Source: a virus. Taken from it: DNA of 34,060 nt. The stretch lies in the IMG/VR virus record IMGVR_UViG_3300042154_000840, positions 1-34,060 of that record. One strand, 5' to 3'. Shown here piece after piece: positions 3,101 to 20,443 of this stretch. The notes below the pieces were generated by a model, which did no database searches, was not told where the DNA came from, and saw nothing but the letters and a program-made list of their open reading frames with translations. The position numbers and the translations under genes are program-made. Positions within the stretch are counted from its first letter, which is position 1. Every line of letters begins with the position of its first letter.

Positions 3101-3506
3101 AAACTATATATTCGTTTGTTGTAGCGTGTGAAACGTATTTATCTGCATTAACACTAAACACATTTGTATTTTGATTTGTACAAAAGATTTTATCTTTATA
3201 GACTATTAAATTATCTATGCTTAATTGTGTCATATCAGCAGTTAATATATTATTATCTACAGTTATTATTGTATTATCAGCTGTAAATGGTAAAGCGTTT
3301 TTAATAACCGTTAAAGTATAAAAGTTATCTTCCTTTAAATCTAAAACCAAATCACATTTTAAATAATATCCTTCAATTTCAAATGTAGGGTTATATAATT
3401 CAAATGTATTAGTTGTTTCGTTTTTTATAATAAGAGTATCAGCCGAATATTCTCTCGGTATGAATTTAATAGTTTGTGGCTCTATTTGCTCTTTTAAAAT
3501 AATCAT
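3093..3506 (-). CDS. hypothetical beta-rich protein upstream of portal
   Basis: A 137-residue protein (MIILKEQIEPQTIKF...) with alternating hydrophobic and polar residues and many Thr, Asn and Val, suggesting an all-beta fold. There is no signal peptide, membrane segment or catalytic motif. A near repeat 'NTIITVDNN-ILTADMTQLSIDN' around residues 78-101 hints at short beta arches. Its 3' end overlaps the portal start by 8 bases, so the two are translationally coupled; a small virion protein associated with the portal or capsid is plausible. It is the first gene of the leftmost minus-strand block, just left of the divergent promoter region. Confidence 0.55.
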   Translation of the reverse strand: MIILKEQIEPQTIKFIPREYSADTLIIKNETTNTFELYNPTFEIEGYYLKCDLVLDLKEDNFYTLTVIKNALPFTADNTIITVDNNILTADMTQLSIDNLIVYKDKIFCTNQNTNVFSVNADKYVSHATTNEYIVYE

Positions 3507-3550
3507 AAAACTTTTTTATTAATAATAACTTTAAACTAGAATTGTTTTAA

Positions 3551-3612
3551 ATAGTTAAATATTTGTTAAAATAGATTTTGTGTTATAAAGTTTTATATAT
3601 TTGTCAAAACAA
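3551..3612 (+). promoter_or_regulatory. phage promoter P1 (plus strand)
   Basis: A perfect Bacteroidetes -7 box TATATTTG lies at 3596-3603, with a TTTG at 3577-3580 (15-bp gap, shorter than the usual 17-23) and a TTTGTTAAA at 3562-3570, starting 34 bases before the -7 box. The block is almost a copy of promoter P2 on the other strand: 3551-3573 is identical over 23 bases to the reverse complement of 15808-15830, and the -7 box and the following GTCAAAACAA are also shared. It drives the two plus-strand genes. Confidence 0.75.
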
Positions 3613-3627
3613 TTAAAAATAAATAAA

Positions 3628-3843
3628 ATGGCAGAAACAGCAGTTGATAAATTTTTTAGAAAAACAATTTTAGAGTGTACGTTCGATACTAATAGAAATA
3701 TCTATGATAATTGTAAAATAAAAGAAAAATTAGAATTTAAAAGATTTTTTGATTTAGGAGTTATGGCTTTGTGTCAACAAAAAGATAATTTAAATAAAGA
3801 AGAAGCTTTTGAATATTGGTATAATAAATATTTAGAAAAATGA
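3628..3843 (+). CDS. small acidic/helical protein of the plus-strand cassette (71 aa)
   Basis: The start is placed at ATG 3628. An upstream TTG at 3601 in the same frame lies inside the -7 promoter box, so it cannot be the translated start. The product, MAETAVDKFFRKTILECTF..., is 71 residues, charged and probably helical, with no membrane segment. Its stop overlaps the next gene's ATG (ATGA at 3840-3843), so the two are co-translated. It lies opposite to all neighbouring structural genes and has its own promoter and terminator, an arrangement typical of phage moron genes. No function is recognised. Confidence 0.75.
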   Translation: MAETAVDKFFRKTILECTFDTNRNIYDNCKIKEKLEFKRFFDLGVMALCQQKDNLNKEEAFEYWYNKYLEK

Positions 3844-4025
3844 AATACGCAATTAAAATATTAGAAAAAGAAAAACAATTATTAGAAGAATGTTTAAAAG
3901 AATGGAAACCTGAAAATTATCCTGAAGCTTTTAAAGAAAGAAACAGAAAGTTAAAAGAAATTGAAAAAGCTATTCAAACTTTAATTTCAAAACAAAGTTT
4001 AATAGAATTAATGAATATGGAATAA
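3840..4025 (+). CDS. small coiled-coil protein of the plus-strand cassette (61 aa)
   Basis: Sixty-one residues (MKYAIKILEKEKQLLEECLKE...), rich in Lys, Glu and Leu, with heptad-like spacing over most of its length. A central 'PENYPEAFKERNRKLKEIEKAI' resembles small phage accessory proteins with an antiparallel helical hairpin. It overlaps the preceding gene by ATGA and is followed within 4 bases by a hairpin terminator. No catalytic residues are visible. Its role is unknown; together with the preceding gene it forms a two-gene unit. Confidence 0.7.
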   Translation: MKYAIKILEKEKQLLEECLKEWKPENYPEAFKERNRKLKEIEKAIQTLISKQSLIELMNME

Positions 4026-4028
4026 AAA

Positions 4029-4049
4029 AAAGGGACTTAATGTCCCTTT
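4029..4049. terminator. bidirectional hairpin terminator between convergent genes
   Basis: Perfect 8-bp stem AAAGGGAC/GTCCCTTT with a 5-base loop. A run of eight A precedes it on the plus strand (a U tract for minus-strand transcripts), and a short T-rich stretch follows. It sits exactly between the end of the plus-strand cassette (4025) and the stop of the converging minus-strand gene (4052). Confidence 0.75.
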
Positions 4050-4051
4050 AA

Positions 4052-4411
4052 TTATTTAATTTGATTTAAAAATTTAATTGATGTATCTATTCTTTTAGCA
4101 TAATCAGATAAATCTTTATTATTATTTTTTAATTCATTAGGTAAATCAATACCTAAATCTGCAGCTTGTTTTTTTACATTATCAAATATCTTATTTGCTA
4201 ATAAAATTTGTTCGCCTGAATTATCAAATAAATCTTGAATTGTTTTAGCGTAGCTTTTTAATTCTTTTAATTTATTATCTGCACTTACATAAGTTGCAAT
4301 TGCTTTTTGAACTGAAGAATAATAATCATCAATAACAGATAATTCAACTTTTTGATTTGCTAATTCTGTTTTGAATAATTTATTCCCTATTTTTTTTACT
4401 TCAGGATTCAT
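4052..4411 (-). CDS. coiled helical protein, paralogue of the 6553-6918 protein
   Basis: A 119-residue, mostly helical protein (MNPEVKKIGNKLFKTELANQKVEL...). It shares a clear pattern with the 121-residue protein encoded at 6553-6918: 'LF-KTELA-QKVEL' near the N-terminus, a helical centre, and an 'LGI-x-P-xE' turn near residue 90 followed by another helix. The two genes flank the scaffold, capsid and putative tail-tube genes. Neither has a recognised domain; small capsid-associated or scaffold-like helper proteins are plausible. A hairpin terminator lies directly upstream, so expression probably depends on read-through. Paralogy is read by eye and is fairly strong. Confidence 0.65.
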   Translation of the reverse strand: MNPEVKKIGNKLFKTELANQKVELSVIDDYYSSVQKAIATYVSADNKLKELKSYAKTIQDLFDNSGEQILLANKIFDNVKKQAADLGIDLPNELKNNNKDLSDYAKRIDTSIKFLNQIK

Positions 4412-4427
4412 ATTATAAATTTTAAAA

Positions 4428-4445
4428 AGGGGTTTTTACACCCCT
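4428..4445 (-). terminator. hairpin terminator/attenuator
   Basis: Stem AGGGGT/ACCCCT (6 bp) with a 6-base loop. In the minus-strand sense it is followed by a run of five T (plus-strand A at 4424-4428). It lies between the putative tail-tube gene and the 119-aa gene, inside the same direction of transcription. Confidence 0.7.
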
Positions 4446-4455
4446 ATGTTATTAA

Positions 4456-4983
4456 TTAAGAACCAACAGTTACTGTAAATCCAGAAGCTACTAATGTATC
4501 ACCCAAGAAGTTTGCAGGTACAGGCTCTTGACCTGATAATGTTAAAGTGTACCCTGACATATCTGCCATAGCCGCACCTGTAACAATAGTTCCACCTGAT
4601 ACTTCCATTCCTTTAGTTAATCCACAATAAAAGATATTACCATTGTTATCTTCTACTAAAACTTGTGGTCTACCGTAAGAAAGTAGTTTAATTTGTTTGT
4701 GGTCTACAATAGACAATTTCTTTAAACTTAAATTTAAAGTTTGTTCAAAAAATGTAGTTCCATTATCTCTTGAACTAGTTATAGTTTGTTCAAAAGATGA
4801 AGTTCCTTTTAAATCGTATTTGAAAGCAACAGGAGTACCCGCTACTGTATCAATTACATCTGTATTAGTTATATCGTATGTATAACCTGTAGCATCACCC
4901 CAATTAACAAAATAAACAGCTCTTAAGCCACCTATTGAGTCCTTACAAGGTTCGATTCTACCTAATGAAATATCACAAGCCAT
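4456..4983 (-). CDS. putative major tail (tube) protein
   Basis: A 175-residue protein starting MACDISLGRIEPCKDSIGG. The opening 'GRIEPCKDSIGGL-AVYFVNW' recurs in Bacteroidetes siphophages. The body is beta-rich with an 'FEQT...FFEQTLNLSLKKL' section like the paired strands of tail-tube proteins, and a C-terminal 'MSGYTLTLSGQEPVPANFL' segment. Size, beta content and position just after the capsid gene fit a tail tube subunit, but a capsid decoration protein is an alternative. It has its own downstream hairpin terminator and another one just upstream, so its transcript level may be set separately from that of the capsid gene. Confidence 0.55.
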   Translation of the reverse strand: MACDISLGRIEPCKDSIGGLRAVYFVNWGDATGYTYDITNTDVIDTVAGTPVAFKYDLKGTSSFEQTITSSRDNGTTFFEQTLNLSLKKLSIVDHKQIKLLSYGRPQVLVEDNNGNIFYCGLTKGMEVSGGTIVTGAAMADMSGYTLTLSGQEPVPANFLGDTLVASGFTVTVGS

Positions 4984-5010
4984 AGTTTTTATTTTTTAAA
5001 GTTAAAAAAA

Positions 5011-5035
5011 AAGGGAAGGCATTTTACCTCCCCTT
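5011..5035 (-). terminator. strong hairpin terminator after the capsid gene
   Basis: In the minus-strand sense, AAGGGGAGG pairs with CCTTCCCTT (9 bp, one G-U) around a 7-base loop and is followed directly by a run of nine T (5004-5012 as A). It lies 20 bases past the major capsid stop codon. Confidence 0.8.
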
Positions 5036-5055
5036 AATTTGGTATTCTATTTTAA

Positions 5056-5988
5056 TTATGCTGGTGTGTAAAGTACAATTTCAGAACCAAATCCGTATTG
5101 AACACCTGCGGTGAAACGCATTACAACTCTTAAATTTTCAGATCCGTCTAAATCGCTCATATCCAGTAACTTAACTTCATTATGGTCAGATAATAGACCT
5201 GTACCAAAATATAAGTTAGATTTTTGTGCAGCCATCATATAATTAGCAGTCATTCCGTTTGCAACAAAGATTTTAACACCGTCAAAAGAAAGTGAACCAT
5301 TGTTGAACCATTGAGTTCCCATTGCATTAGTACCATTAGCTCCTAATCCTGAAGCTCCGAATCCACCTAAAGCTCTTACATAAGCTCTAGCAACACTTTG
5401 AGAAACGTAGATATATAAATCTTCTTTTCCATAAAGTTTAGCAGGGATAGCATCAACAACTTTTCCAAGTTCAGCAATTACGTTTGCAGCAGTAACTGTA
5501 GTTCCAACAACATCAATAACAGTTGCATCAGCAGTAGCTTTAACAACTAATCCGTCAAATTCTCCTGTATTAGCAGTAGCACCGTGCCAAATGTTAGTTT
5601 CATTCTTTTCAGCAACTTTAGCAACAACGTGAGCTAAAATAAAATCAGCAAATGCTGGAGGTAAATTATCAAATGCAGAATATCCCATTTGTACAGCTTC
5701 CCAATCTGATTTAAAGTCTTTCTTACAAAGTTGTAAGTTTACTTGAAATTCTTCAGGTTGCAAAATAGCTTCTGTTAATGTAACAGTAGATGTAGCAGTA
5801 AAATCACAAGTAGCATCTTTTTGAATTGCATCAGTAGCAAGTTTTTTGATAACTTCTTTATATTTTACATTTGGTTTAACTTCAATACCACCGTTTTCGA
5901 TAGTTGAAGCAGAAAGTAAAGCAGCAGAAATGTATTTTCCGGCAAATTCACCAGCATAGCTAGTCGTAATACTTGTTGTAGTCGGCAT
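5056..5988 (-). CDS. major capsid protein (HK97-like fold)
   Basis: A 310-residue protein in the range of small HK97-type capsid proteins without a long delta domain. Features include an N-terminal 'YAGEFAGKYISAALLSA' helix, an E-loop region with 'FQVNLQLCKKDFKSDWEA', a spine-helix-like Ala/Val-rich segment, Gly-rich 'GGFGASGLGANG' near residue 215, and a C-terminal 'VVMRFTAGVQYGFGSEIVLY' typical of Bacteroidetes capsid proteins. The gene follows the scaffold-like protein by 11 bases and is followed by a strong terminator, as expected for the most abundant virion protein. Codons are noticeably richer in G and C than in accessory genes, consistent with high expression. Confidence 0.85.
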   Translation of the reverse strand: MPTTTSITTSYAGEFAGKYISAALLSASTIENGGIEVKPNVKYKEVIKKLATDAIQKDATCDFTATSTVTLTEAILQPEEFQVNLQLCKKDFKSDWEAVQMGYSAFDNLPPAFADFILAHVVAKVAEKNETNIWHGATANTGEFDGLVVKATADATVIDVVGTTVTAANVIAELGKVVDAIPAKLYGKEDLYIYVSQSVARAYVRALGGFGASGLGANGTNAMGTQWFNNGSLSFDGVKIFVANGMTANYMMAAQKSNLYFGTGLLSDHNEVKLLDMSDLDGSENLRVVMRFTAGVQYGFGSEIVLYTPA

Positions 5989-5999
5989 AGTTTTATTAT

Positions 6000-6542
6000 T
6001 TATTTGTTAAGTTTTGCGAATACTCTATCTAAAGTAGACATTTCACGAGATTTTGAAAATTGATTAAATTTAACTTCGTTTGTAATTTCAGGTGAGTGTG
6101 TTAATGATTCAACAACTACATCTGAACTTAATTCTTCTTTAACAACTTCTTTAACTGATTTTAACTCAGCAATTTCAGTTCTTAATTTTTCAATTTCAGC
6201 AAAGAACATTTCTTTAGAAACTGATTCAACAATTCTTTTCGGAGTTGCAAGTTCAGCTTGTGCTTCAACCTCAACTTCTACTTCAGCTTCAGGAGCTTCT
6301 TCTTCAACAATGGCTTCTTTAATTTCAGCAATAATACCTTCTTCAGATACTACTAAAACCATTCCATCCTCAAGAATATACTCGCCAATAGGTAAAGCAA
6401 TTCTATCTTCTTCATTGATAATAAAAACAGGTTGTCCAGCTTCAAACATTTCAGCTTCTAACACTGTGCCATTATCAAGTTTCATTTGAGCGAGTTTTAT
6501 CTCCATACCCAAAAGAGTTTTGATTTCATTAATTACATTCAT
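6000..6542 (-). CDS. putative capsid scaffolding protein
   Basis: A 180-residue protein. Residues 1-80 form a small beta-rich domain ('MKLDNGTVLEAEMFEAGQ' ... 'LPIGEYILEDG') resembling the N-terminal domain of proteins encoded just before Bacteroidetes capsid genes. Residues 80-105 are an extremely acidic Glu/Val/Ala tract, followed by a coiled coil ('EIEKLRTEIAELK') and a basic C-terminus ('DRVFAKLNK'). An acidic linker, coiled coil and basic tail immediately upstream of the capsid gene are hallmarks of a scaffold. The call rests on architecture and position, not on a recognised catalytic or binding motif. Confidence 0.65.
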   Translation of the reverse strand: MNVINEIKTLLGMEIKLAQMKLDNGTVLEAEMFEAGQPVFIINEEDRIALPIGEYILEDGMVLVVSEEGIIAEIKEAIVEEEAPEAEVEVEVEAQAELATPKRIVESVSKEMFFAEIEKLRTEIAELKSVKEVVKEELSSDVVVESLTHSPEITNEVKFNQFSKSREMSTLDRVFAKLNK

Positions 6543-6552
6543 ATTTACTTAT

Positions 6553-6918
6553 TTAAAGTTTAGCTGATTCAAGACCTTTAATATATTGAGCAAAAGTACC
6601 TTTTAACCCATCCTGAATATTTTGTTTTTGGTCTGTAATTTCTTTTGGCATTGGTATACCTAATTCTTTAATCATCGCCTCAAATTTTGCAAAAATTGGT
6701 AATGAATTTTCATTTATTGCTTTTAAATTTTTTAATTCTGATAAAGCACTTGCAACTGCAGATTTAGCACCATTGTAAACATCCAAGCTTTTTTTTCTTG
6801 CAGCTATTGCTTCGTTATAAGATTTCTTAACATCATCATTAATTGCTAATTCAACTTTTTGCGTAGCTAATTCTGTTTTTCCAAATAAGGATTTAAATAC
6901 TAATTTTTCAGTAGACAT
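6553..6918 (-). CDS. coiled helical protein, paralogue of the 4052-4411 protein
   Basis: A 121-residue helical protein containing 'LFGKTELATQKVELAIND' at residues 10-27 and 'ELGIPMPKEI' near residue 90, both matching the pattern of the 119-residue protein at 4052-4411. The middle is Lys/Ala-rich and likely a helical bundle. It precedes the scaffold-like gene by 10 bases. Duplication and divergence of one ancestral gene on either side of the capsid block is the simplest reading. Function unknown; a structural or assembly helper is suggested by location only. Confidence 0.65.
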   Translation of the reverse strand: MSTEKLVFKSLFGKTELATQKVELAINDDVKKSYNEAIAARKKSLDVYNGAKSAVASALSELKNLKAINENSLPIFAKFEAMIKELGIPMPKEITDQKQNIQDGLKGTFAQYIKGLESAKL

Positions 6919-6964
6919 AATTTTATTTTTTATATTAATACTTATTATTTATATTTGTTATAAA

Positions 6965-7147
6965 TTAGCCGTTAGAACTTACAATAGTTCTTACTCCGTC
7001 TACGTTATTTACAACTGAAGTTTCTTGACCTACTAAACTTCCTACTCCTTGTTCTGATAGTTCACCATTACAACATTCTGATTTGTAAGTTCCGTCTTTA
7101 CATAGACACCCTCTTTTTCCGCCTTTTGGACTTGTAGTTTTACTCAT
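6965..7147 (-). CDS. small Cys-rich protein (60 aa)
   Basis: Sixty residues with a basic, Gly-rich N-terminus ('SPKGGKRGCLCKDGTYKSECC') that holds four Cys in a CxC-x8-CC pattern, followed by a Gly/Val/Ser-rich tail. The Cys cluster could bind a metal or form disulphides in the virion. It overlaps the protease gene by 8 bases and so is in the head operon. I recall similar Cys-motif proteins in flavobacterial phages, but no assigned function. Confidence 0.6.
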   Translation of the reverse strand: MSKTTSPKGGKRGCLCKDGTYKSECCNGELSEQGVGSLVGQETSVVNNVDGVRTIVSSNG

Positions 7148-7730
7148 TGTTTTTAATTATTGATTTAATTTTTTCTATTAACTCTTTTTCTAATTCTAAT
7201 TCTAAACTCATTTCTAATTTATCGCTGAAATAACCCTCCACACTTATTCCTAAATATGTACCGTTTTTTATTTCTTCCCAAACTTTGTCATTATCAATAC
7301 TCATAATAACAGCCCAAGAACCTTCAGTAGCATTTAAATTGTAGATAGCTGTTTTATCTAATTTAGGGTTTTCTACTATCCAAGATTCAACAACTGAAAC
7401 ACCTTCTACTTCTGTTTTGTGTTCTAAAGTAGCGTTATTGTTATTTAGTCTTTTTAAATATAATTGACCTGCTTTTTTTACAGTTTCTTTTGAAAATTTA
7501 ATATTATATTCGTGTTCTCCATTTCTTCTATAAATTTCTTTATCAGGAACTAAAGCTAATCCTATAATAATTCTTTTTTCATCATCAATAGATTTAAATT
7601 CTATTTTATGATTATTTAATGCTACCCAATTTTCTTCAGTAGCAGGAAACTTTACTAGACTTAAAGCTTCTATACCATCATTTTCAGCAGTTTCATCTAT
7701 AAAAAGTTCTATTGTTTCTAATTTAGCCAT
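7140..7730 (-). CDS. XkdF-like prohead protease
   Basis: A 196-residue protein. The core at residues 58-125 ('GLALVPDKEIYRRNGEHEYNI', then 'KETVKKAGQLYLKR', 'ATLEHKTEVEGV-VVESWIVE') follows the pattern of the XkdF family of phage serine proteases, with a candidate catalytic His in 'LEHK' and Ser in 'VVESW'. Such proteases cleave scaffold or capsid precursors during head maturation. Downstream residues ('GSWAVIMSIDNDKVWEEIKNG', 'GISVEGYFSD') also fit. Its start overlaps the end of the homing endonuclease gene by 13 bases. It lacks the C-terminal Cys/His module that here sits on the portal. Confidence 0.75.
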   Translation of the reverse strand: MAKLETIELFIDETAENDGIEALSLVKFPATEENWVALNNHKIEFKSIDDEKRIIIGLALVPDKEIYRRNGEHEYNIKFSKETVKKAGQLYLKRLNNNNATLEHKTEVEGVSVVESWIVENPKLDKTAIYNLNATEGSWAVIMSIDNDKVWEEIKNGTYLGISVEGYFSDKLEMSLELELEKELIEKIKSIIKNNE

Positions 7731-8269
7731 TGTAAATTTGTTTTATTAATTCTTTTGTTATTTAACATTTCGCTTAATACTGAATAATTTATTTTATTAT
7801 CTTCAGATGCTTTACGCATAGATTCAAATATAATTCCCGTTTCTGTATTTATTATTTTTTTATTGTTTTTACCTAAACAAGAATTACGCATATTTAATTT
7901 ATAATCTTCATTTTGCGTAAAAGAATAATCTTTTTGATTTTTATTGTAATTAGTTAATCTAATTTTTCTTTTTGATTTTTCTTCTAAATTCATATTAGAA
8001 AATCCTTCACCACCATCAGTCATATTAACTAACTTTCCTAAATTCAAATCTTTTCTTCCGTAGTATGATATTAAATTTATTTCTAATTCTTTTGCTAAAT
8101 CATATTCAATATTGTTTGTTAATATCTGAACTTCATAGCCATATTTATTTACGGTATTTAACCAATGTTTATTTCTACCGTATTTAGAATAAGCTCTTTT
8201 TTTTGATATTCCAATTCCTATATAAAAAACTTCACCGCAAGGTTTCAAATGTCTATATAATAAAGCCAT
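7718..8269 (-). CDS. GIY-YIG homing endonuclease, free-standing
   Basis: A 183-residue protein with an N-terminal GIY-YIG nuclease domain (residues 1-95). 'LLYRHL' and 'VFYIGIG' form the paired strands, and 'KKRAYSKYGRNKHW' and 'NMTDGGEGFS' are conserved blocks of the SegA-like branch. The C-terminal third ('KKIINTETGIIFESMRKASE' ... 'LQWLN') looks like a NUMOD1-type DNA-binding helix-turn-helix. Such enzymes cut intron- or gene-less alleles and spread into related phages. It sits between the tape measure and the protease genes and overlaps the protease start by 13 bases. It is unrelated in function to the neighbouring virion genes, so it is an insertion. Confidence 0.85.
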   Translation of the reverse strand: MALLYRHLKPCGEVFYIGIGISKKRAYSKYGRNKHWLNTVNKYGYEVQILTNNIEYDLAKELEINLISYYGRKDLNLGKLVNMTDGGEGFSNMNLEEKSKRKIRLTNYNKNQKDYSFTQNEDYKLNMRNSCLGKNNKKIINTETGIIFESMRKASEDNKINYSVLSEMLNNKRINKTNLQWLN

Positions 8270-8312
8270 TATTTTTTTTATTAAAAATTAAAATTTATCT
8301 TTTTTGTTTTAT

Positions 8313-10067
8313 TTATCCAATAGAAGCATTTGATATTATATTTCTATCTAAACTTTGAGCTGAAGTAACTGCACCTGATACTACATAAGCTTGTAAAGGT
8401 TGTGCGTTTTGATTAGCCATTGATTGTGCTAATTGACTTGTACCTGTATTACCTACTACATTAAATTGGGGCGCACCACCAGCTGGAGCTTTTGTGTTTG
8501 ACATTGCGCCACCACCTGCACCACCACCACCTACTGCTTGTAATGCTTTTGCAGTCGCAGCTATTGTAGTAGCTATTCCTAATCCAGTAGTAATGTTATT
8601 CATTGCTATAACAGGAGCTGCACTTGCACCAGAAGTTAATATTGCTTGTGGAGTTGCTAAAGCACCAATATTAGCAGCGTTATTAGCTATAATCATTTTG
8701 CCTATACCAATAGCATTTTCAGCTATTATAGCAGCTTTTTGTATTGTTTTATTTTTACCCGCAATAGACTTTAAAAAATCAACTGCACCACTTGCTAATT
8801 GTAATTGTGCATTTTGAATATCTTGTTTTTGTTGTGCTTCAGCATTTGCTACTAATATTCTATAATCAGCCTCACGTTCTTCTTGTTCAGAAGTTTTTTT
8901 AGTATATTCCTCTAAAGCCTCTAATTGACCTTGTCTAATTTCATCCTGTTGCTGATTATATTTATCAGAATTTTCTTTTGATTTATTAAAAAAATCTTCA
9001 GCTTCTTTTAAATCTTCTGCTATTTTTCTATTTTTTTCGTCTTGTATTTCTTTTGCTTTTCTATCTCTTTCACTTTTTTCTTTTTCATTAGCAGATTTTA
9101 TTTTGTCTAAATTATCTTGTAATAATTTATTTTTTTCTGCTTTTTCTTCTTCATCTATTTTCTTTTTAGCTAAAGCGTTCTGTTTTCTTAATAATTCTTC
9201 ATTATATAAACCAGTTTTAACTGCTTCAAAATATTCATTATCAGCTGCTATTTTATCTTTTTGATATTTAGTTAATTCTTGTGCGTGTTCTTTTAAATAT
9301 TTATCGTTTTGCTTTAATGATTTTTCTGCATTTTTAGTCATTTTTTCCATAGCTCTTTCAGCTTCAGAAGTAACACCTATAAAATCAGTAACCGAATTAA
9401 TAATATTACCAAAAAATTCTCCTATTTGTGCAAGTCCAGGAACTAAATTTAATACAGCTTTTTTAACTTTATCAAAGTTTGCAATTAATAAACCCAATCC
9501 AACTACGATAGCACCTATTCCTGTTGAAACTAAAGCTAATCTAAATAATTTTAATCCTGTAGTCGCTGCATTAGTTACAAATGTGGCTGTTGCGGTAACA
9601 CTAGTATATAGTACTTGAGCAGCTGAAGTATTTTTTAAAACCGCTGCTAATTGTCTAAATGAATCTATACTTTCTCCAACAGATTGCAACCCTTGAGATA
9701 AAGCCATTGCAGACTGAACCTTTAATAATTGTCTTTCTAAATCAGCACTTTCTACACCTATCAAACCCATTCCGCCTTGAATAGCAGCAAATCCACCAGC
9801 TACACCACTTAATGAAGCTGTTAATGCTTTAAATTTAGCATCAGGATTAAAGGCGTCAGTTAATGCTTTTGCATCTCCTATTCTATCTTTTAATTCAGCA
9901 GTTCTTTTAGCCGCTTCAACAGCTTGTTTTGATGTTGCTCCAAATTTATCGGATAATGAATTTACTTCATTTTGAGCTTCTCTTAATTGTGTTTTTAAGC
10001 TACTAATACTTTTAGTAGTATTGTCTAAATTACTATTGACTTCTAAACTAACTACTTTTGTTTCCAT
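8313..10067 (-). CDS. tail tape measure protein
   Basis: A 584-residue protein: a coiled-coil N-terminus with 'SLKTQLREAQNEVNSLSDKFG', Ala/Gly-rich helices, a hydrophobic segment near residues 180-200 ('ALVSTGIGAIVVGLGLLIAN'), a long charged coiled coil (about residues 235-410), and an Ala/Gly-rich C-terminus with a Gly run. This is the usual composition of a tape measure protein, which sets siphophage tail length and travels down the tube during ejection. At roughly 1.5 angstrom per residue it would predict a tail on the order of 85-90 nm. No muramidase or peptidase domain is visible. Its start overlaps the 48-codon gene upstream. Confidence 0.85.
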   Translation of the reverse strand: METKVVSLEVNSNLDNTTKSISSLKTQLREAQNEVNSLSDKFGATSKQAVEAAKRTAELKDRIGDAKALTDAFNPDAKFKALTASLSGVAGGFAAIQGGMGLIGVESADLERQLLKVQSAMALSQGLQSVGESIDSFRQLAAVLKNTSAAQVLYTSVTATATFVTNAATTGLKLFRLALVSTGIGAIVVGLGLLIANFDKVKKAVLNLVPGLAQIGEFFGNIINSVTDFIGVTSEAERAMEKMTKNAEKSLKQNDKYLKEHAQELTKYQKDKIAADNEYFEAVKTGLYNEELLRKQNALAKKKIDEEEKAEKNKLLQDNLDKIKSANEKEKSERDRKAKEIQDEKNRKIAEDLKEAEDFFNKSKENSDKYNQQQDEIRQGQLEALEEYTKKTSEQEEREADYRILVANAEAQQKQDIQNAQLQLASGAVDFLKSIAGKNKTIQKAAIIAENAIGIGKMIIANNAANIGALATPQAILTSGASAAPVIAMNNITTGLGIATTIAATAKALQAVGGGGAGGGAMSNTKAPAGGAPQFNVVGNTGTSQLAQSMANQNAQPLQAYVVSGAVTSAQSLDRNIISNASIG

Positions 10068-10198
10068 TCTCTTTTTATTTTATTTATTGCTTGTTTAAAT
10101 GAAGTTGGCATCTGATTCTTTCCTTTTGCTATATCTATATTCTCGCCTCGACCATAGAAATCATCTATTGAAAGCATTTTTAAAATATGTTCTATCAT
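10052..10198 (-). CDS. short gene between tail protein and tape measure (48 aa)
   Basis: The ATG at 10198-10196 overlaps the TGA of the 829-residue tail gene (ATGA). The frame ends in TAG at 10054-10052, 16 bases inside the tape measure gene. The product (MIEHILKMLSIDDFYG...MPTSFKQAINKIKREWKQK) is small and basic at the C-terminus. Coupling on both sides argues that it is real. Tail assembly chaperones often precede tape measure genes, but this peptide does not resemble one and a chaperone candidate is found elsewhere (14713-15455). Function unknown. Confidence 0.7.
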   Translation of the reverse strand: MIEHILKMLSIDDFYGRGENIDIAKGKNQMPTSFKQAINKIKREWKQK

Positions 10199-12684
10199 CC
10201 TAATTGTGTTATTGATAAATTAATTGTCGTTAAAACTCCATCCTTATAATAATCTACTTCTATTAATTGTAACCTTTCTAATACTGTTCCGTTTGGTGCA
10301 ATCGTAATTGTAAATGTTACATCTTCTGTATTGTCTAATTCATCAGTAAACGATGCAAATGTTTTTACCCCTGACACATCAAAACTATCAAATTCATTTC
10401 TGAATATAGTCATTTGATAACTTTGAGCTGTATTGTCTAGAATTACAACATCACTTGTAGAGAATCTATAACCTATTGTATTTAGATTATCAACTTGTCT
10501 ATAATCAGTTATTAATTCTAGGTCTGTTTCACCTGTTGTTAAATCAGTTGTAAATGAATTTATAATGAATCTTTTATCCCTAATTATAATTCTGTCTTTT
10601 AATGTTAAAGTATTTAAAACAATATCAGAAAGTACAGCTTTTACTTTATAAATTCTAGTCTTAATATTATAAAGGTTTTCTATATAATTTCTGTAATGTC
10701 TTTGATATAAACTAGCCGAAGCGTTTGTATTATAAAATGGCGATTGATATTCACCCCAGTTCATACTCATTAAATAACTTAAATCACTCGCGACGGGTGC
10801 TATTTCATTTGAGAATCTATTATAGTTTACCATAACATCCTGATCTATTTCAGTTGTAATTCTTATTTTATGAATATCTGTTAGTTCATTTGGTAATAAA
10901 CCATTCTCATAAAGAAATACAGGTTTTGGCGTGTATGGGTTTAAATCTTTATCAATAAATGTAGCAGTTAAAAACGGTGCTTCTTCACCTATTTGTTTTT
11001 CAAATAATACATCTTCAAATGGTACTTTAATTTCATAGTTTGCACTTTCATTAGATTTTTTATCTGTAAAAGTTAAATCACCATATTGTAAATTAAATAA
11101 ACCATAGAAAGCATCATTTAAAATACTATTAGATTTTTCATATTCAAACTTAATAGCTTTGAATAGTTTAGGTCTTTCAATATCAAAATCATCTGACTTA
11201 ATATATTTAGTTAAGTCAACTATTCTCCCTTGTTGGTAAAATAATTCTAAAGGTACTAACTCAAATTCAGTAGGACTTTTAGGTAGAATCATTAAGTTAA
11301 ATAACTTAACTACACCTGTAAAAAAATCAGCTATTGTAATATCAGGTACAAATCCTTGTATATTACTATCTGCTGCTGTTGTTTGTGCTACTGATTGTGT
11401 AGCTACACCTCTTACTTTAAATATACTTGAAGTAACCCATCTTTTATCATAATCTAAATAACTTGTAAAAGTCATTTCTGATGCCGATTGAATATAAAAA
11501 GTAAACTTATAATTTGTAGGGTCATTAAAATATGAATTATCAAAAAAGTAAACAGTTTCAACGCCAACTAAATTATCAAAAGTTTGCCATAATAAACCTT
11601 CATTATAAACTAATAATTTATAAGGAATATTTGTTACCGTAGGCGTAATTACAATAGGACATATAATTCTTCTAGCGTAATATTGATTTGAATTAGCTAA
11701 AGCCCCTACATTTGTAAAGTCCCAATCAAAATTCAAAGTGTCAGTTGTTAAATCAAAATCATCAAATAACAAAGGACTTCCCGACGGTAATGTAATTGCT
11801 TTTGAATTAAAATTAATTTTAGTAGGTGGTGTAAAATAATTTACATCTTTATCATTCTTTAAAAGAAGTCTTAATTTAGTCCATTGTGTGTAATTTAAAA
11901 ATGAACCTGTAAAAGATATTCCGTATTTGCTCTGAATACCATTAAATATATCACTTAATCTAATAGCAGGGAATAAATTATTCCATTCAATAGCTCCACC
12001 TGATAAAGTTATATCTTCATTTACGCTTCCTGTTTCATATTCAAACTTTCTATTATTACCTAATAAAGGGTACATAACAGATTCTGATGTACTTGATACA
12101 ATTCTATTTATTATTTCTGTAGAAGTCCAAGGATGGTTTAAATAACCATAATCTAATTCATTTAATTTATCTTCTTTAAATAAGTCTTTTAATTGTGTTA
12201 AGTTGCCATAAAAAGTAACTGAATAACTTTCTATAAACCCATTCTTTCTATTTGCTTTTTCTAATTGTACATTACCCTGTCTAAATGGTATTGTATTTAT
12301 TTCTATATAAGCATTGTAACGTACTCTATGGTCATAACCATTATCTACATCAGATTCATACCAATGTGAGAAAATACTATTGTTATAATCGTTTGCAGGT
12401 ATAGTAAATGATTGACTAAAGTCCGTAAATACTTTTCCTATGTCATTTGCGTTTTGTAATGAACTTGTAACACTAATTTTTTCATCATTAAATAGCTCTA
12501 CTCTTTTAGCTAATTTCGTAGTGCCAAAATATCCACCTAATGAATTTAATGTATCTACTAAACAAGTTTCTGCTTCAAATGTTCCACCATCAGCAACAAT
12601 AGAAGTTTCAATACTATTAACTACATCAGCAGTTATATTTACAGGAACATCTACATAAATATATAATGCAACTTGGTTTTCCAT
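10195..12684 (-). CDS. large distal-tail/tail-tip protein
   Basis: An 829-residue protein, mostly beta. After a short N-terminal region with 'FEAETCLVDTLNS' (residues 36-48), the segment 'VFTDFSQSFTIPANDYNN' and 'FRQGNVQLEKANRKNG' matches a conserved tail protein of flavobacterial siphophages. The centre has a 'TDITIADFFTGVVKLFNLMI'-like amphipathic stretch and the C-terminus has Ig-like beta-strand composition. By size and place, between the 342-residue tail protein and the tape measure, it most likely forms part of the tail tip or baseplate (Dit/Tal-like). No hydrolase motif is seen. The FEA...CL...TLNS motif recurs in one of the fibre proteins. Confidence 0.65.
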   Translation of the reverse strand: MENQVALYIYVDVPVNITADVVNSIETSIVADGGTFEAETCLVDTLNSLGGYFGTTKLAKRVELFNDEKISVTSSLQNANDIGKVFTDFSQSFTIPANDYNNSIFSHWYESDVDNGYDHRVRYNAYIEINTIPFRQGNVQLEKANRKNGFIESYSVTFYGNLTQLKDLFKEDKLNELDYGYLNHPWTSTEIINRIVSSTSESVMYPLLGNNRKFEYETGSVNEDITLSGGAIEWNNLFPAIRLSDIFNGIQSKYGISFTGSFLNYTQWTKLRLLLKNDKDVNYFTPPTKINFNSKAITLPSGSPLLFDDFDLTTDTLNFDWDFTNVGALANSNQYYARRIICPIVITPTVTNIPYKLLVYNEGLLWQTFDNLVGVETVYFFDNSYFNDPTNYKFTFYIQSASEMTFTSYLDYDKRWVTSSIFKVRGVATQSVAQTTAADSNIQGFVPDITIADFFTGVVKLFNLMILPKSPTEFELVPLELFYQQGRIVDLTKYIKSDDFDIERPKLFKAIKFEYEKSNSILNDAFYGLFNLQYGDLTFTDKKSNESANYEIKVPFEDVLFEKQIGEEAPFLTATFIDKDLNPYTPKPVFLYENGLLPNELTDIHKIRITTEIDQDVMVNYNRFSNEIAPVASDLSYLMSMNWGEYQSPFYNTNASASLYQRHYRNYIENLYNIKTRIYKVKAVLSDIVLNTLTLKDRIIIRDKRFIINSFTTDLTTGETDLELITDYRQVDNLNTIGYRFSTSDVVILDNTAQSYQMTIFRNEFDSFDVSGVKTFASFTDELDNTEDVTFTITIAPNGTVLERLQLIEVDYYKDGVLTTINLSITQLG

Positions 12685-13713
12685 TTATATATTATTATTG
12701 ATTAAAGTATAAGCATATTCAAACTCCATTTCGTAATTTATGTTTTTATCTTGTAATGAAGTTTTTAAATTAGTTGACTTTGTCATTACTTTAACAGGTT
12801 TATTATCTAATAATACAGTTTCACTTAATAATAAATCTTGTACTAATTCTGAATAGTTTTGAGCAACCCATCCAGTATTTAATCTTATCTTTTGCGTTCC
12901 GTTTAAATTAAACGTTTTGTTTTGCCCTTCGTGAAAATCATAGTTTATATTTTCAGAAAAATGATTGTAATCACTTCCTTTAACATCTATGCTATTAACT
13001 TGTGCTTTAAAGAAGTTTATAAACGACCATCCACCAAAACGATTTATAAATGAACATACTACAGGAGTATATTTAGGTTCGCATATTTGATTTAAATTAA
13101 CTGTTGTAGTATTTTCACCGTAGCTAAGTATGTTGAAAGGATATAAATTATTATATATTAAAGGCAATTTTATTACTTTAGGATAATCTAAAACATCAAA
13201 TTCATTGTCTAAATTATTTGCGTTCCAATTATAAGTTCCAACATTAAATAAAGCATTAATATAAATTGGTTGTCCCTCAATTAAATCTAGTTTAATATCA
13301 GAATTGAATAACAAAACAACATCAGCATCAGTAGTTTGATTATAACCATTAATATAATTAGTATATCCTTCAACAGCGATATAATCAGTTGAATCTATTA
13401 AATTGTATTTATCCCTTGATTCGCCCCAATATCTTTTAACAGTCACATTACAATAAAGATTGTAATCTTCATTTTCTAATGTTGATGGATTATAATCAGG
13501 ATATACATTATTTATATATTCTCTACAATAGTTTGATATATTATAATTGTTTTCAGTTTGTGTAGCACTTGCTATATATTTAGAAAGTGTGTATGTAGGA
13601 TTAAGCGGAGCTGTATCAGGATTATTCCAAATATACAATTCAACTTTACTACCAGCTTGTCCTACTTCATCTACTGTAATAAAAAAAGGACTTCTTACAA
13701 ATATTGTGTTCAT
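12685..13713 (-). CDS. tail protein, beta-rich, upstream of tail-tip protein
   Basis: A 342-residue protein (MNTIFVRSPFFITVDEVGQ...) rich in Asn, Tyr and Thr. The opening 'VRSPFFI' and the C-terminal 'LNTGWVAQNYSELVQDLLLS' with 'TSLQDKNINYEMEFEYA' are conserved features of a tail component of Bacteroidetes phages. It abuts the 829-residue gene with no gap and shares one base with the upstream gene. A baseplate or distal-tail role is inferred from this neighbourhood; no enzymatic motif is seen. Confidence 0.6.
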   Translation of the reverse strand: MNTIFVRSPFFITVDEVGQAGSKVELYIWNNPDTAPLNPTYTLSKYIASATQTENNYNISNYCREYINNVYPDYNPSTLENEDYNLYCNVTVKRYWGESRDKYNLIDSTDYIAVEGYTNYINGYNQTTDADVVLLFNSDIKLDLIEGQPIYINALFNVGTYNWNANNLDNEFDVLDYPKVIKLPLIYNNLYPFNILSYGENTTTVNLNQICEPKYTPVVCSFINRFGGWSFINFFKAQVNSIDVKGSDYNHFSENINYDFHEGQNKTFNLNGTQKIRLNTGWVAQNYSELVQDLLLSETVLLDNKPVKVMTKSTNLKTSLQDKNINYEMEFEYAYTLINNNI

Positions 13714-14258
13714 TATTTTATATCTTTTAAACTAAATTTTAATAATTCTTCTATGTCTAATCCAAATGCTTCTTCTAATTCTTTTGTAATATATTTATCG
13801 TAACCTTCTTGAAATGGTTTTGTAAAAAATAATGTTGGTTTCATTCCCTTATGATATATTGACCTTGTAATTAAATACGCAGTTTGTTTATAAGATAGAA
13901 ATTGTCCTTTAGTTCCTTTACCTTCTTTTTGTCTAAATTGAAATCCTTTTTGTCTAACCCATTTATTTATTCCTTCAGTTAAACCACCTTTTTTACCTGA
14001 ACCTGAACCAAATCTATATGGACTATTAGGAGCTTTATTAGAACTTGTTTTACCTTTAACACCTTTGTCTTGAAACAATCCATATTGTTGCATAGTAAAA
14101 TCTAATTGAAAACTATTCTCACTTACTATAACTTTAGAATTGTCTAAAGACTTTGCTAATGCACCTGTATTATCTTTGCCTCTTAAATTATTTTTAGCTC
14201 TTAAAACTACATAATCCCTAAAAGCTACTAATGTTTTATATGTATTATTAGGTATCAT
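13713..14258 (-). CDS. HK97 gp10-like neck/tail completion protein
   Basis: A 181-residue basic protein. The N-terminal helix ('AFRDYVVLRAKNNLRGK'), then 'TGALAKSLDNSKVIVSENS', 'YGLFQDKGVKGK' and a C-terminal 'MKPTLFFTKPFQEGYDKY' follow the HK97 gp10/tail completion pattern, where a short Lys/Gly-rich loop separates the strands. These proteins join head and tail or cap the tail tube. It overlaps neighbours at both ends by single bases. The middle insertion ('GSGSGKKGGLTEGINKWVRQ') is longer than usual for the family. Confidence 0.65.
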   Translation of the reverse strand: MIPNNTYKTLVAFRDYVVLRAKNNLRGKDNTGALAKSLDNSKVIVSENSFQLDFTMQQYGLFQDKGVKGKTSSNKAPNSPYRFGSGSGKKGGLTEGINKWVRQKGFQFRQKEGKGTKGQFLSYKQTAYLITRSIYHKGMKPTLFFTKPFQEGYDKYITKELEEAFGLDIEELLKFSLKDIK

Positions 14259-14713
14259 TAACAGATAGTCATTGTGTTTGCTATTTGAACATCAAACGTT
14301 ACTGTCCATCCAGCTATCTTGTTTTCAAATCTATCTACAAATGGTTCACAAGTTGGACTTCCTGTTAGTTCAAAATAATCATTATACATATCACCTCTAC
14401 GCAACATTTCTAATACTCTATTAATTACTGCTAATTGAGTATTTAATACATCTTGTTCGTTATCATTACCTAAAAACAAATCAATAGTTTCATCTTTAGA
14501 TATGTCTACAATATCCATACATAGTACTGATAAATTAAATTGCCATACGTTGTTTAAATACGTTGCATTATTTACCATTATATGTGACAATGGGAATATA
14601 GTTTGCTTACTTAAATCTACTTCAAATATGTCACCTATTGTAACAGTATTTACAAATGCATCTAATTGTAATTGATTCTTTAAAGCTGTTGTTACGTTGT
14701 AATATCCTTGCAT
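14258..14713 (-). CDS. putative tail terminator/completion protein
   Basis: A 151-residue alpha/beta protein (MQGYYNVTTALKNQLQLDAF...) with the pattern 'NEQDVLNTQLAVINRVLEML-RGD' and 'PTCEPFVDRFENKIAGWTV', which recurs in Bacteroidetes phage tail operons. Size and fold pattern fit a tail terminator that ends tube polymerisation. Its start codon overlaps the stop of the frameshifted tail chaperone product (TAATG at 14715-14711), which links it to that gene rather than to the shorter zero-frame product. The exact role is inferred. Confidence 0.55.
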   Translation of the reverse strand: MQGYYNVTTALKNQLQLDAFVNTVTIGDIFEVDLSKQTIFPLSHIMVNNATYLNNVWQFNLSVLCMDIVDISKDETIDLFLGNDNEQDVLNTQLAVINRVLEMLRRGDMYNDYFELTGSPTCEPFVDRFENKIAGWTVTFDVQIANTMTIC

Positions 14714-15455
14714 TATTTTCCTTTTATTAATTCTATTTCTATTTCGTTCTTTTGTTTCTCAAATATTAAATATGTCAAACATTGGTGTAGTGAAAGTTTT
14801 GTTGTGGCATCAAATTCTCTAAGGTTTCCTTGACTAATAGCATAGATGCTTGAATACCATCCCCAACGCTTCCCGAATTGTGCTTGTTTAGAATATTCTG
14901 TACCTCCTGATTGTTCTCCAAATAGTTCAGTGTAGCGGTCAATAATTCGTTGCCTAAATGATAAAAAAAAACAACAGCCCCTAGAACAACATCTAAAGGG
15001 GCGTGTTTCATTACATCACTATATGTTATTGAACCATTGTACTTTTCTATTTCGTATGTACTACCAAATCCTTTTTTAGTTATTGGTCTATATAAAACAG
15101 CCATTGCTTTATTCATTTGTGTCCAATCAGAAATGTAAGTATCTAAGTCTGTATATTCGCCAAATGTTATTTCTTCAAGATTAGGTATAAATCCGAACTC
15201 TACGCCACCCATTTTAAAATGTGGTATAAACTTATGTTCTTTAGAAAACAATGCACCTAGTGATTCTGAAATGTCTTTTACGGTAGTGTATTTAATTTGT
15301 GCAACATCTTTTAAATCTATTCCACAAAAAAGCTGAACCATTTTTTGTTGTAGAAACTCTGATTCAGGATTGTCTTTAGCTATTTCTAAAAACTTTTGAT
15401 ATTGAAGTAATTTTATTTCTTTTAATTCGGTAGGTATGTTAATCTCTAACTTCAT
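14713..15455 (-). CDS. tail assembly chaperone, -1 frameshift long form (about 247 aa)
   Basis: Translation of the gene starting at 15455 can move to the -1 frame at a T9 run (14963-14971 as A on the plus strand). The -1 frame is then open for 83 codons to the TAA at 14715-14713. The added part reads 'FGEQSGGTEYSKQAQFGKRW', 'WGWYSSIYAISQGNLREFD', 'LSLHQCLTYLIFEKQKNEIE', a coherent, protein-like sequence whose WGWY and CL-YL-FEK features I recall from C-terminal parts of Bacteroidetes phage tail chaperones. The long form would be 164 zero-frame residues plus 83, like lambda gpGT. Its stop forms TAATG with the next start. The open frame and run are seen; frameshifting itself is inferred. Confidence 0.7.
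14775..15455 (-). CDS. tail assembly chaperone, zero-frame form (226 aa)
   Basis: A 226-residue protein (MKLEINIPTELKEIKLLQYQ...) with the pattern 'FGFIPNLEEITFGEYTDLDT' followed by 'MNKAMAVLYRPITKKG' and 'PLDVVLGAVVFFYHLGNEL', which I associate with the tail chaperone found upstream of tape measure genes in Bacteroidetes phages. It would act like gpG, binding the tape measure before tube assembly. The last 62 residues are read only if the ribosome stays in frame across the T9 run. The zero-frame tail ('SGSVGDGIQASMLLVKETLE') is also protein-like, so both products are probably made. A terminator hairpin lies 50 bases upstream of its start. Confidence 0.7.
   Translation of the reverse strand: MKLEINIPTELKEIKLLQYQKFLEIAKDNPESEFLQQKMVQLFCGIDLKDVAQIKYTTVKDISESLGALFSKEHKFIPHFKMGGVEFGFIPNLEEITFGEYTDLDTYISDWTQMNKAMAVLYRPITKKGFGSTYEIEKYNGSITYSDVMKHAPLDVVLGAVVFFYHLGNELLTATLNYLENNQEVQNILNKHNSGSVGDGIQASMLLVKETLENLMPQQNFHYTNV
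14963..14971 (-). promoter_or_regulatory. candidate -1 ribosomal slippery run (T9)
   Basis: Nine consecutive T on the coding strand in the context GTT-GTT-TTT-TTT-TAT. In the zero frame this reads Val-Phe-Phe-Tyr; a one-base backward slip on the T run reads Leu-Ser and enters an 83-codon open frame. The run satisfies the XXX-YYY-Z heptamer rule with X=Y=T. I did not identify a strong pseudoknot downstream. Confidence 0.65.
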
Positions 15456-19065: not shown

Positions 19066-19280
19066 TTTATTCCTAAGATTAATATATCATTTATATTGTA
19101 AATAGATATGTCTGTTATGTATGTAATTGTTTTTATAATACTTTCATTAGTTTCTAAATTAACTAACGTTAAATCGTCTCCTATTAAGTAATTTCTGTTA
19201 TTACGTCTTATTTCAAATTTTTTAATTCCTGTTTTTATATCATTGAAATATTTGTCTTGTATGTCTAAAATATGATTCAT
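19062..19280 (-). CDS. ASCH/DUF3850-like PUA-fold protein
   Basis: The start is set at ATG 19280-19278, which overlaps the TAA of the ABC-GNAT gene as TAATG; an upstream in-frame ATG would add 13 residues inside that gene. The 72-residue product (MNHILDIQDKYFNDIKTGIK...) has 'YFNDIKTGIKKFEIRRNNRN' then 'IGDDLTLVNLE' and 'TYITD', the pattern of DUF3850, a member of the ASCH/PUA-like fold. Such domains bind RNA or modified nucleotides. Coupled translation with the GNAT fusion suggests they work together. Homology by pattern only. Confidence 0.75.
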   Translation of the reverse strand: MNHILDIQDKYFNDIKTGIKKFEIRRNNRNYLIGDDLTLVNLETNESIIKTITYITDISIYNINDILILGIK

Positions 19281-20443
19281 TAAAACATTGATATTTGATT
19301 TTGTGCTACATCCTTCCAAGCATCAGCATTAAACGTTATTAAATCTGTATTAATATCATCTTTATTACCTATGAATTTATATGATTTAGATACTCTTGTA
19401 GACGTGTTGTATTCTCCTTGTGTTTTTTGTTTCTTGGATTGCATCATTTCTGCTTTTTCTTCGCCTTTAGTTTCGCCACAAAATAACCAATTATTAGAAT
19501 TATTAAACACTGACCACAAAGCAGGATTAGATGTTTTTATATACATTGTTTTATTATCATTTTTATAAACTTGACCGAACCAATTACAAATTTTAAAACC
19601 AATACCTAAACCTTGGAAATCAGGCAATACTACAACTCTTGATATTCTATAACCATTTTGAATAACACCACTTGGAAAAGGTAATATAGCCATAAACGCT
19701 ATTGGTTTATCATTAAACAAAGCTACATAACATTTAGCTGCTTTATTTAAATCTTCAGTTAAATAATGATTGTGTTTGAATAATTTCCAAGTTTCATATC
19801 TACATCGAAATACCTGAAGTTCAATTTTTGGTTGCCGAAGTGATGGCGCTATCTCAAGACGCCCTTTTGATGGTGAATAAATCCAATCAGGTTGCAACCA
19901 TTCCATTATATCAAAATGACAAGATGCAAGTACAATCTTTTTATTAGTTCTTCTAATATATTTTTGTAATGCATTACTCATAGCTTTTGCAACATCTCTA
20001 TCTACAACAGATGTATATTCATCAATCAATATTACTTCGTTTTCTGATGCACTGCCTACGATATAAGCAAGATTTGCTCTGTATTGTTCACCATTTGAAA
20101 GTGTATTGAAAGGTCTCAACCAAGTTGGAACAGAACTTAAACCCATAGCAGATAATAAAAATGTAGCATCTTTAGGTTCTAACCAATCAAAATTTGAAAT
20201 TAATGATTTAGAATTATCAAAATATGATTTGTCCATTTCTTTTTTAAAGTAATTTTTTAATATAGTAGTTTTACCTGTACCACTACCACCATAAACTACA
20301 CCTATGTTCCATTGATTAGGTAAATTTTCTAAATTAGCTTCAACAATTACATTTGATTCATCTTTGTTTTGTATGTCAAATGCTTCATAAATATAATTAG
20401 TATATTTATCATTGTTAATTTTATGTGTTAAATTTATTTTCAT
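19280..20443 (-). CDS. ABC-family ATPase fused to GNAT acetyltransferase domain (Mom-like candidate)
   Basis: A 387-residue two-domain protein. Residues 1-200 are an ABC ATPase: Walker A GGSGTGKT (52-59), signature LSNGEQ (115-120), Walker B VILIDE (137-142) with catalytic Glu142 and an H-loop His (176 in ASCHFD). No membrane segments are present, so it is a soluble ABC protein. Residues about 205-325 are a GNAT domain with 'HNHYLTEDL', 'KPIAFMAILPFPSG' and the acetyl-CoA motif 'RVVVLPDFQGLGIG'. The HYL and VLPDxQGxGIG pattern recalls phage Mu Mom and related predicted DNA base modifiers. It lies between an exonuclease and an ASCH gene. Domains are clear; DNA modification is inference. Confidence 0.8.
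   Translation of the reverse strand: MKINLTHKINNDKYTNYIYEAFDIQNKDESNVIVEANLENLPNQWNIGVVYGGSGTGKTTILKNYFKKEMDKSYFDNSKSLISNFDWLEPKDATFLLSAMGLSSVPTWLRPFNTLSNGEQYRANLAYIVGSASENEVILIDEYTSVVDRDVAKAMSNALQKYIRRTNKKIVLASCHFDIMEWLQPDWIYSPSKGRLEIAPSLRQPKIELQVFRCRYETWKLFKHNHYLTEDLNKAAKCYVALFNDKPIAFMAILPFPSGVIQNGYRISRVVVLPDFQGLGIGFKICNWFGQVYKNDNKTMYIKTSNPALWSVFNNSNNWLFCGETKGEEKAEMMQSKKQKTQGEYNTSTRVSKSYKFIGNKDDINTDLITFNADAWKDVAQNQISMF

Follow-up and report, generated by a model that had tools for sequence, protein, structure and literature searches.

That a single tail gene can yield two products is already known from phage lambda, in which the short form gpG is accompanied by a low-abundance long form, gpGT, completed in the -1 frame. 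The lambda slip site, GGGAAAG, lies 18 nt ahead of where the stop codon ends, and G-T lies directly before the tape measure gene. The extension of the long form contacts the tail tube protein (PMC5009743). The tail assembly chaperone frameshifts of actinobacteriophages, represented by the SEA-PHAGES set of PRFect, likewise join two overlapping tail ORFs, at a slip that averages 26 nt from the in-frame stop (PMC10885494). Two products are also obtained by transcriptional slippage on long A/T homopolymers, e.g., in Thermus dnaX (A9), Shigella spa13 and mxiE, and Citrobacter tssM (A11) (PMC1088944, PMC5009743, PMC4256274).

A candidate for a gene of this general kind lies on the minus strand of the viral DNA analysed here (hereafter the window, the whole stretch of 34,060 nt, positions 1 to 34,060 of IMG/VR record IMGVR_UViG_3300042154_000840; Table 1). 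Ordinary reading of the gene would give the short form, while a switch of frame, presumably programmed slippage on a run of nine Ts (T9), would give a 247-aa protein that shares the first 164 residues and takes its final 83 from the -1 frame, which is open for 83 codons downstream of the run (LSFRQRIIDRYTELFGEQSGGTEYSKQAQFGKRWGWYSSIYAISQGNLREFDATTKLSLHQCLTYLIFEKQKNEIEIELIKGK). This T9 is the sole run of at least nine identical bases inside any likely gene of the window. The preliminary description of the locus had reported the position of the run, its GTT-TTT-TTT-TAT context, the 83-codon frame and the TAATG overlap, in which the -1 stop and the ATG of the next gene share a base, and all of these were recovered on the minus strand; its statement that the zero frame ends 62 bases before the -1 frame agrees with stops ending at 14775 and 14713. 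When synonymous codons were shuffled with the zero-frame protein held fixed, the -1 frame stayed open over the entire overlap in ~0.02% of trials (mean of 28 sequences); with the -1 protein fixed, the zero frame was as open as observed in ~1.6% (mean of 28 sequences). The boldest reading, with a probability of about 0.5, is that a widespread family of flavobacterial phages may tune the proportion of its two tail assembly chaperones through slippage of RNA polymerase on at least nine Ts instead of ribosomal frameshifting, so that control at another level would arrive at the gpG/gpGT outcome, in addition to about 20 truly dual-coding codons beyond the run.

Table 1. Features of the two-product locus and its surroundings in the window.
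Feature	Position	Strand	Evidence
Short form, zero frame, 226 aa (stop included)	14775..15455	-	phrog_32199, function unknown, E 8e-18
N domain common to both products, 164 aa	14964..15455	-	29-92% identity to 15 relatives (alignment A1)
Putative slippage run T9, G TT/TTT/TTT/T AT	14963..14971	-	At least nine Ts in all 323 sites
-1 extension, 83 codons and stop; putative hidden T-like domain with WGWY motif	14713..14964	-	Selected throughout; all-helical model
About 20 codons selected in both frames	14904..14963	-	Pairwise substitution classes; shortest zero-frame tail of the family 23 codons
Remaining zero-frame tail, open, no apparent amino-acid selection beyond -1 demands	14775..14903	-	Pairwise substitution classes
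TAATG, -1 stop overlapping next start	14711..14715	-	ATG no more than 5 nt from the -1 stop in 274/310 loci
Next gene, 151 aa, phrog_30964, function unknown	14258..14713	-	PHROG match
Tape measure protein candidate, 584 aa	8313..10067	-	phrog_3336 tail length tape measure protein, E 2e-5

A first scan of viral contigs returned 80 close relatives, with extensions 59-100% identical to that of the window, and in all 80 the T9 is in the same phase and is followed by the -1 extension. Among those with both frames complete, the zero frame stops 58 or 62 codons after the run, and the -1 frame after 82-85. Further queries, built from a distant isolate and other members, reached relatives at ~30% identity, and the -1 shift was present in 83/83 of this next set. 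A joint rescan then gave 242 scorable loci, every one with the -1 extension and at least nine Ts (9, 10 and 12 Ts in 198, 43 and 1 loci, respectively), none in-frame and none +1. These later scans used patterns of the N domain only, so the extension did not choose the loci. Window, close set and joint rescan make up 323 sites (322 related loci), of which 76 are non-redundant, and comparison over them indicates two products that share the N domain and diverge by a -1 change. That both arise through realignment at the T run is therefore, as far as conservation can tell, close to certain, and its retention in more than 300 related phages marks the device as ancient. The third frame meets a stop 0-3 codons after the run in 158/162 loci.

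The only isolated relatives found are the Nonlabens phages P12024S and P12024L, both with T9 and the same -1 extension, and in both records the two halves are annotated separately as hypothetical proteins. The preliminary description had named two outcomes that would count against it, i.e., relatives lacking the slippery run or the -1 frame, and a run that was really T8 or T10 and gave one plain frame. Neither was encountered, as relatives down to ~30% identity all keep at least nine Ts and the -1 frame, with none in-frame. Genome collections gave three matches, on contigs assigned to the bins of Flavobacterium, Winogradskyella and a Bacteroidetes bacterium, from which the hosts are taken to be Bacteroidota, probably mostly Flavobacteriia.

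Two relatives stand apart in the run or just after it. Locus L090 (1934-1960) is the only one seen with a broken extension: it keeps T10, but its -1 frame meets TGA a few codons on, which is either a real loss or a sequence error. Locus L141 (~2995-3645) has twelve Ts, with an additional TTT codon in the same phase, so that length varies upward and never falls below nine. As a separate observation, A/T runs of at least eight are strongly avoided in the genes of the 76 non-redundant loci (14 observed, ~43 expected).

How would the frame be changed? RNA polymerase would add one U (T9 to U10), and the mRNAs so lengthened would be read straight into the -1 frame, giving exactly the protein that a -1 ribosomal slip on U_UUU_UUU would give. 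Polymerase and ribosome cannot be told apart from sequence as such, because T9 always holds an in-phase T_TTT_TTT and both routes lead to the same protein. The behavior of the run across the family does bear on the choice. It has 9, 10 or 12 Ts and never 7 or 8 in any of the 323 sites, despite at least 17 codon-state changes that the tree requires at this position. In phase 1, the codon after the run starts with T in 66/66 non-redundant sequences, whichever of Y, W, S, C, L or F it encodes. Three TTT codons alone supply nine Ts in phase 0, and there the next codon starts with T in 3/10; the state without a following T requires two changes on the tree. What is kept, on this comparison, is nine Ts, not seven. 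Nine is also where, in a large share of bacterial genomes, Baranov and colleagues saw avoidance of slippage become apparent (PMC1088944).

The same length is rare elsewhere in these phages. A/T runs of at least nine occur once in their other genes against 13.0 expected (229 ORFs, 56,829 codons), an avoidance that is strongest at the greatest lengths and that could also reflect replication slippage. A search for RNA structure downstream or upstream of the run found no stimulator (downstream mean z +0.28, with 0/45 below -1.5), and no other slippery heptamer was found in any of the 76 non-redundant sequences. The absence of 7 or 8 Ts, the avoidance of runs elsewhere, the lack of downstream structure and the early stop in the third frame favor polymerase slippage, and on these grounds the slip is placed, with modest confidence, at RNA polymerase rather than at the ribosome alone.

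The strongest alternative is that the same two products come from a programmed -1 ribosomal frameshift of the lambda gpG/gpGT kind, with U_UUU_UUU as its slip site, and that the flanking codons alone hold the extra Ts. We regard this as possible, at less than even odds. The in-phase heptamer is inside every run, tail chaperones described in a review use this route (PMC5009743), and lambda-type sites need only a few percent of slippage. There are also protein reasons for T at the edges of the run: the codon before it is a hydrophobic one (V, I, L or F), and most relatives open the extension with L or F, residues that by themselves require T. Against this, the many codon changes on the tree never produced seven or eight Ts; nor has any sequence adopted an alternative heptamer or a downstream structure, and the length-dependent avoidance of A/T runs in other genes is likewise at odds with a slip at the ribosome.

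Whether each frame is maintained as protein was assessed from differences between nearest pairs of present-day sequences (no more than 15% distance), each classed by its effect in both frames and expressed per 1000 weighted opportunities. Upstream of the run, changes silent in the zero frame only occur at 37 and those silent in the -1 frame only at 2.4, which is ordinary zero-frame coding; beyond the zero-frame stop the pattern flips, to 0.6 and 23. Within the overlap both rates are low over codons 1-20 (9.0 and 2.5), with values of 8.2 and 23 over codons 21-62. Relative to one-frame regions, the overlap thus shows an about 4-fold drop in changes silent in the zero frame only. Those silent in the -1 frame only are 7- to 9-fold lower than in one-frame regions over the first 20 overlap codons, and over codons 21-62 their rate equals that found after the overlap.

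These substitution classes show that selection at the protein level acts on the -1 extension and also on the opening ~20 codons of the zero-frame tail. Both frames are selected over the ~20 codons after the run, so those bases are truly dual-coding. The last ~40 codons of the zero-frame tail look passive, the rest of the overlap appearing to be selected in the -1 frame only. Such a two-zone pattern fits the family as a whole, in which zero-frame tails span 23-77 codons beyond the run, with none below 23. Read from the codons, some of what looks like zero-frame conservation (GDGI) simply mirrors the WGWY motif of the -1 frame. The preliminary description had credited the -1 frame with protein character and had proposed a check of selection in the overlap; run as two-frame substitution classes, that check finds the -1 frame selected throughout and both frames selected over the first ~20 codons.

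The two proteins are likely to have a role like that of tail assembly chaperones. We infer this from the two-product logic, the location in a tail region and one weak fold match to a protein so named. In the proposed scheme, many short forms and few long forms would coat the tape measure protein, as gpG and gpGT do, and the helical extension would recruit tail tube subunits. The halves were folded separately as models. AlphaFold2 predicts the short form as a mixed alpha/beta domain (mean pLDDT 79), whose last long helix, residues 154-181, would contain the run, and the extension as all helical (pLDDT 80). A fold comparison with predicted viral structures pairs the short-form model with numerous uncharacterised phage proteins and with a single one called tail assembly chaperone (E 0.12, probability 0.94). 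Both models, the extension weakly, are also matched by several proteins 226-267 aa long, and such joint matches are expected if the two parts sit on one chain. Flavobacterium phage 6H, a fold neighbor, was set aside as its frames near the gene end give no simple -1 join. Behind this neighbor (record L166, 10060-10430, minus strand) some 80 codons are open without annotation, in a frame that a single simple -1 slip does not connect; this may be another hidden extension or a sequence error.

Could the slippage products be real and the protein something else, such as another head or tail assembly factor? Four genes separate the studied gene from the tape measure candidate, no convincing match to the short form came from Pfam or NCBIfam, nor to the extension from Pfam, and the PDB yielded no relative by sequence or by fold. 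The gene has its own PHROG, without known function (phrog_32199, which spans 175 positions and so resembles Nonlabens phage gp40 in length). A short and a long form with a shared N domain are nevertheless a hallmark of tail chaperones, 16/43 relatives weakly match phrog_166, a "tail protein" family (looked for in three records, with no match), and one of the fold matches carries the chaperone name. A different assembly factor is for these reasons judged unlikely. Of the original assignment as a tail assembly chaperone, the two-product core stood up over the 323 sites; the chaperone identity draws on the features above, and hhalign detects no relation to lambda G or T.

It is very improbable that the -1 frame instead belongs to an independent downstream gene initiated within the overlap. 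The P12024L record does annotate gp40 and gp41 apart, with gp41 from an internal ATG. But in 71/76 non-redundant sequences the open -1 frame lacks an ATG both ahead of the run and in the 33 codons after it, 51/76 have no ATG, GTG or TTG over the same stretch, and conservation of the -1 frame starts exactly at the run, so internal initiation was rejected. An error of sequencing or assembly, with a true T10 and one plain long ORF, or with the short form as sole product, can be dismissed for the family: homopolymers are error-prone and the relatives are mostly metagenome contigs, but hundreds of contigs and two isolate genomes agree with none in-frame, and beyond the run the zero frame, never shorter than 23 codons, is under selection of its own for ~20.

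The window carries candidates for terminase, portal, protease, capsid and tape measure genes. Along the minus strand (1313-15455) the tail genes precede the head genes, with the chaperone candidate and tape measure followed by protease, capsid and portal, an order inverted relative to lambda-like phages. An ORF of 183 aa (7718-8269, minus strand) that by eye resembles a GIY-YIG homing endonuclease separates the tape measure candidate from the head protease gene, whose start it overlaps. Another minus-strand ORF, of 387 aa (19280-20443), appears by eye to combine an ABC-type ATPase with an acetyltransferase-like domain, which is unusual in a small phage.

The open-access literature yielded no description of chaperone frameshifting in flavobacterial phages and no proposal that a phage tail gene uses transcriptional slippage. 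The present family adds a large, unannotated chaperone-like group, mostly from uncultured phages, whose second half has been missed even in isolate records. It is suggested that frameshift finders tuned to slips ~26 nt before a stop likely overlook such genes. With more than 300 sites and two isolated phages, the family is a natural experiment on whether the ratio of tail products can be set during transcription.

The simplest reading is thus of a chaperone pair like gpG/gpGT by way of working, membership by descent not being supported by homology. As in lambda, there is a short form and a putative long form in the -1 frame. In contrast to lambda, the short form of the studied gene goes on for 62 codons (186 nt) after the slip, the site is T_TTT_TTT and always lies within at least nine Ts, and the gene is not adjacent to that of the tape measure. 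The actinobacteriophage genes share the joining of two overlapping ORFs, whereas here the slip falls 69-231 nt before the short stop and the site is always a T homopolymer. With the transcriptional slippage genes the family shares a conserved A/T homopolymer of about nine or more, present at all 323 sites, together with avoidance of long runs in other genes; no phage tail gene is among the cases found, and slippage of the mRNA is here a prediction from DNA sequence. Closest are P12024S gp38-gp39 and P12024L gp40-gp41, which belong to the same family and share the T9, its phase and the -1 extension, but are only ~30% identical, have a zero-frame tail of only 25 codons and are annotated as two unrelated hypothetical proteins. 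Set beside all of these, the unusual features of the family, as its aligned sequences present them, are a slip far before the short stop, at a site that is a homopolymer only and is never shorter than nine whatever the codons.
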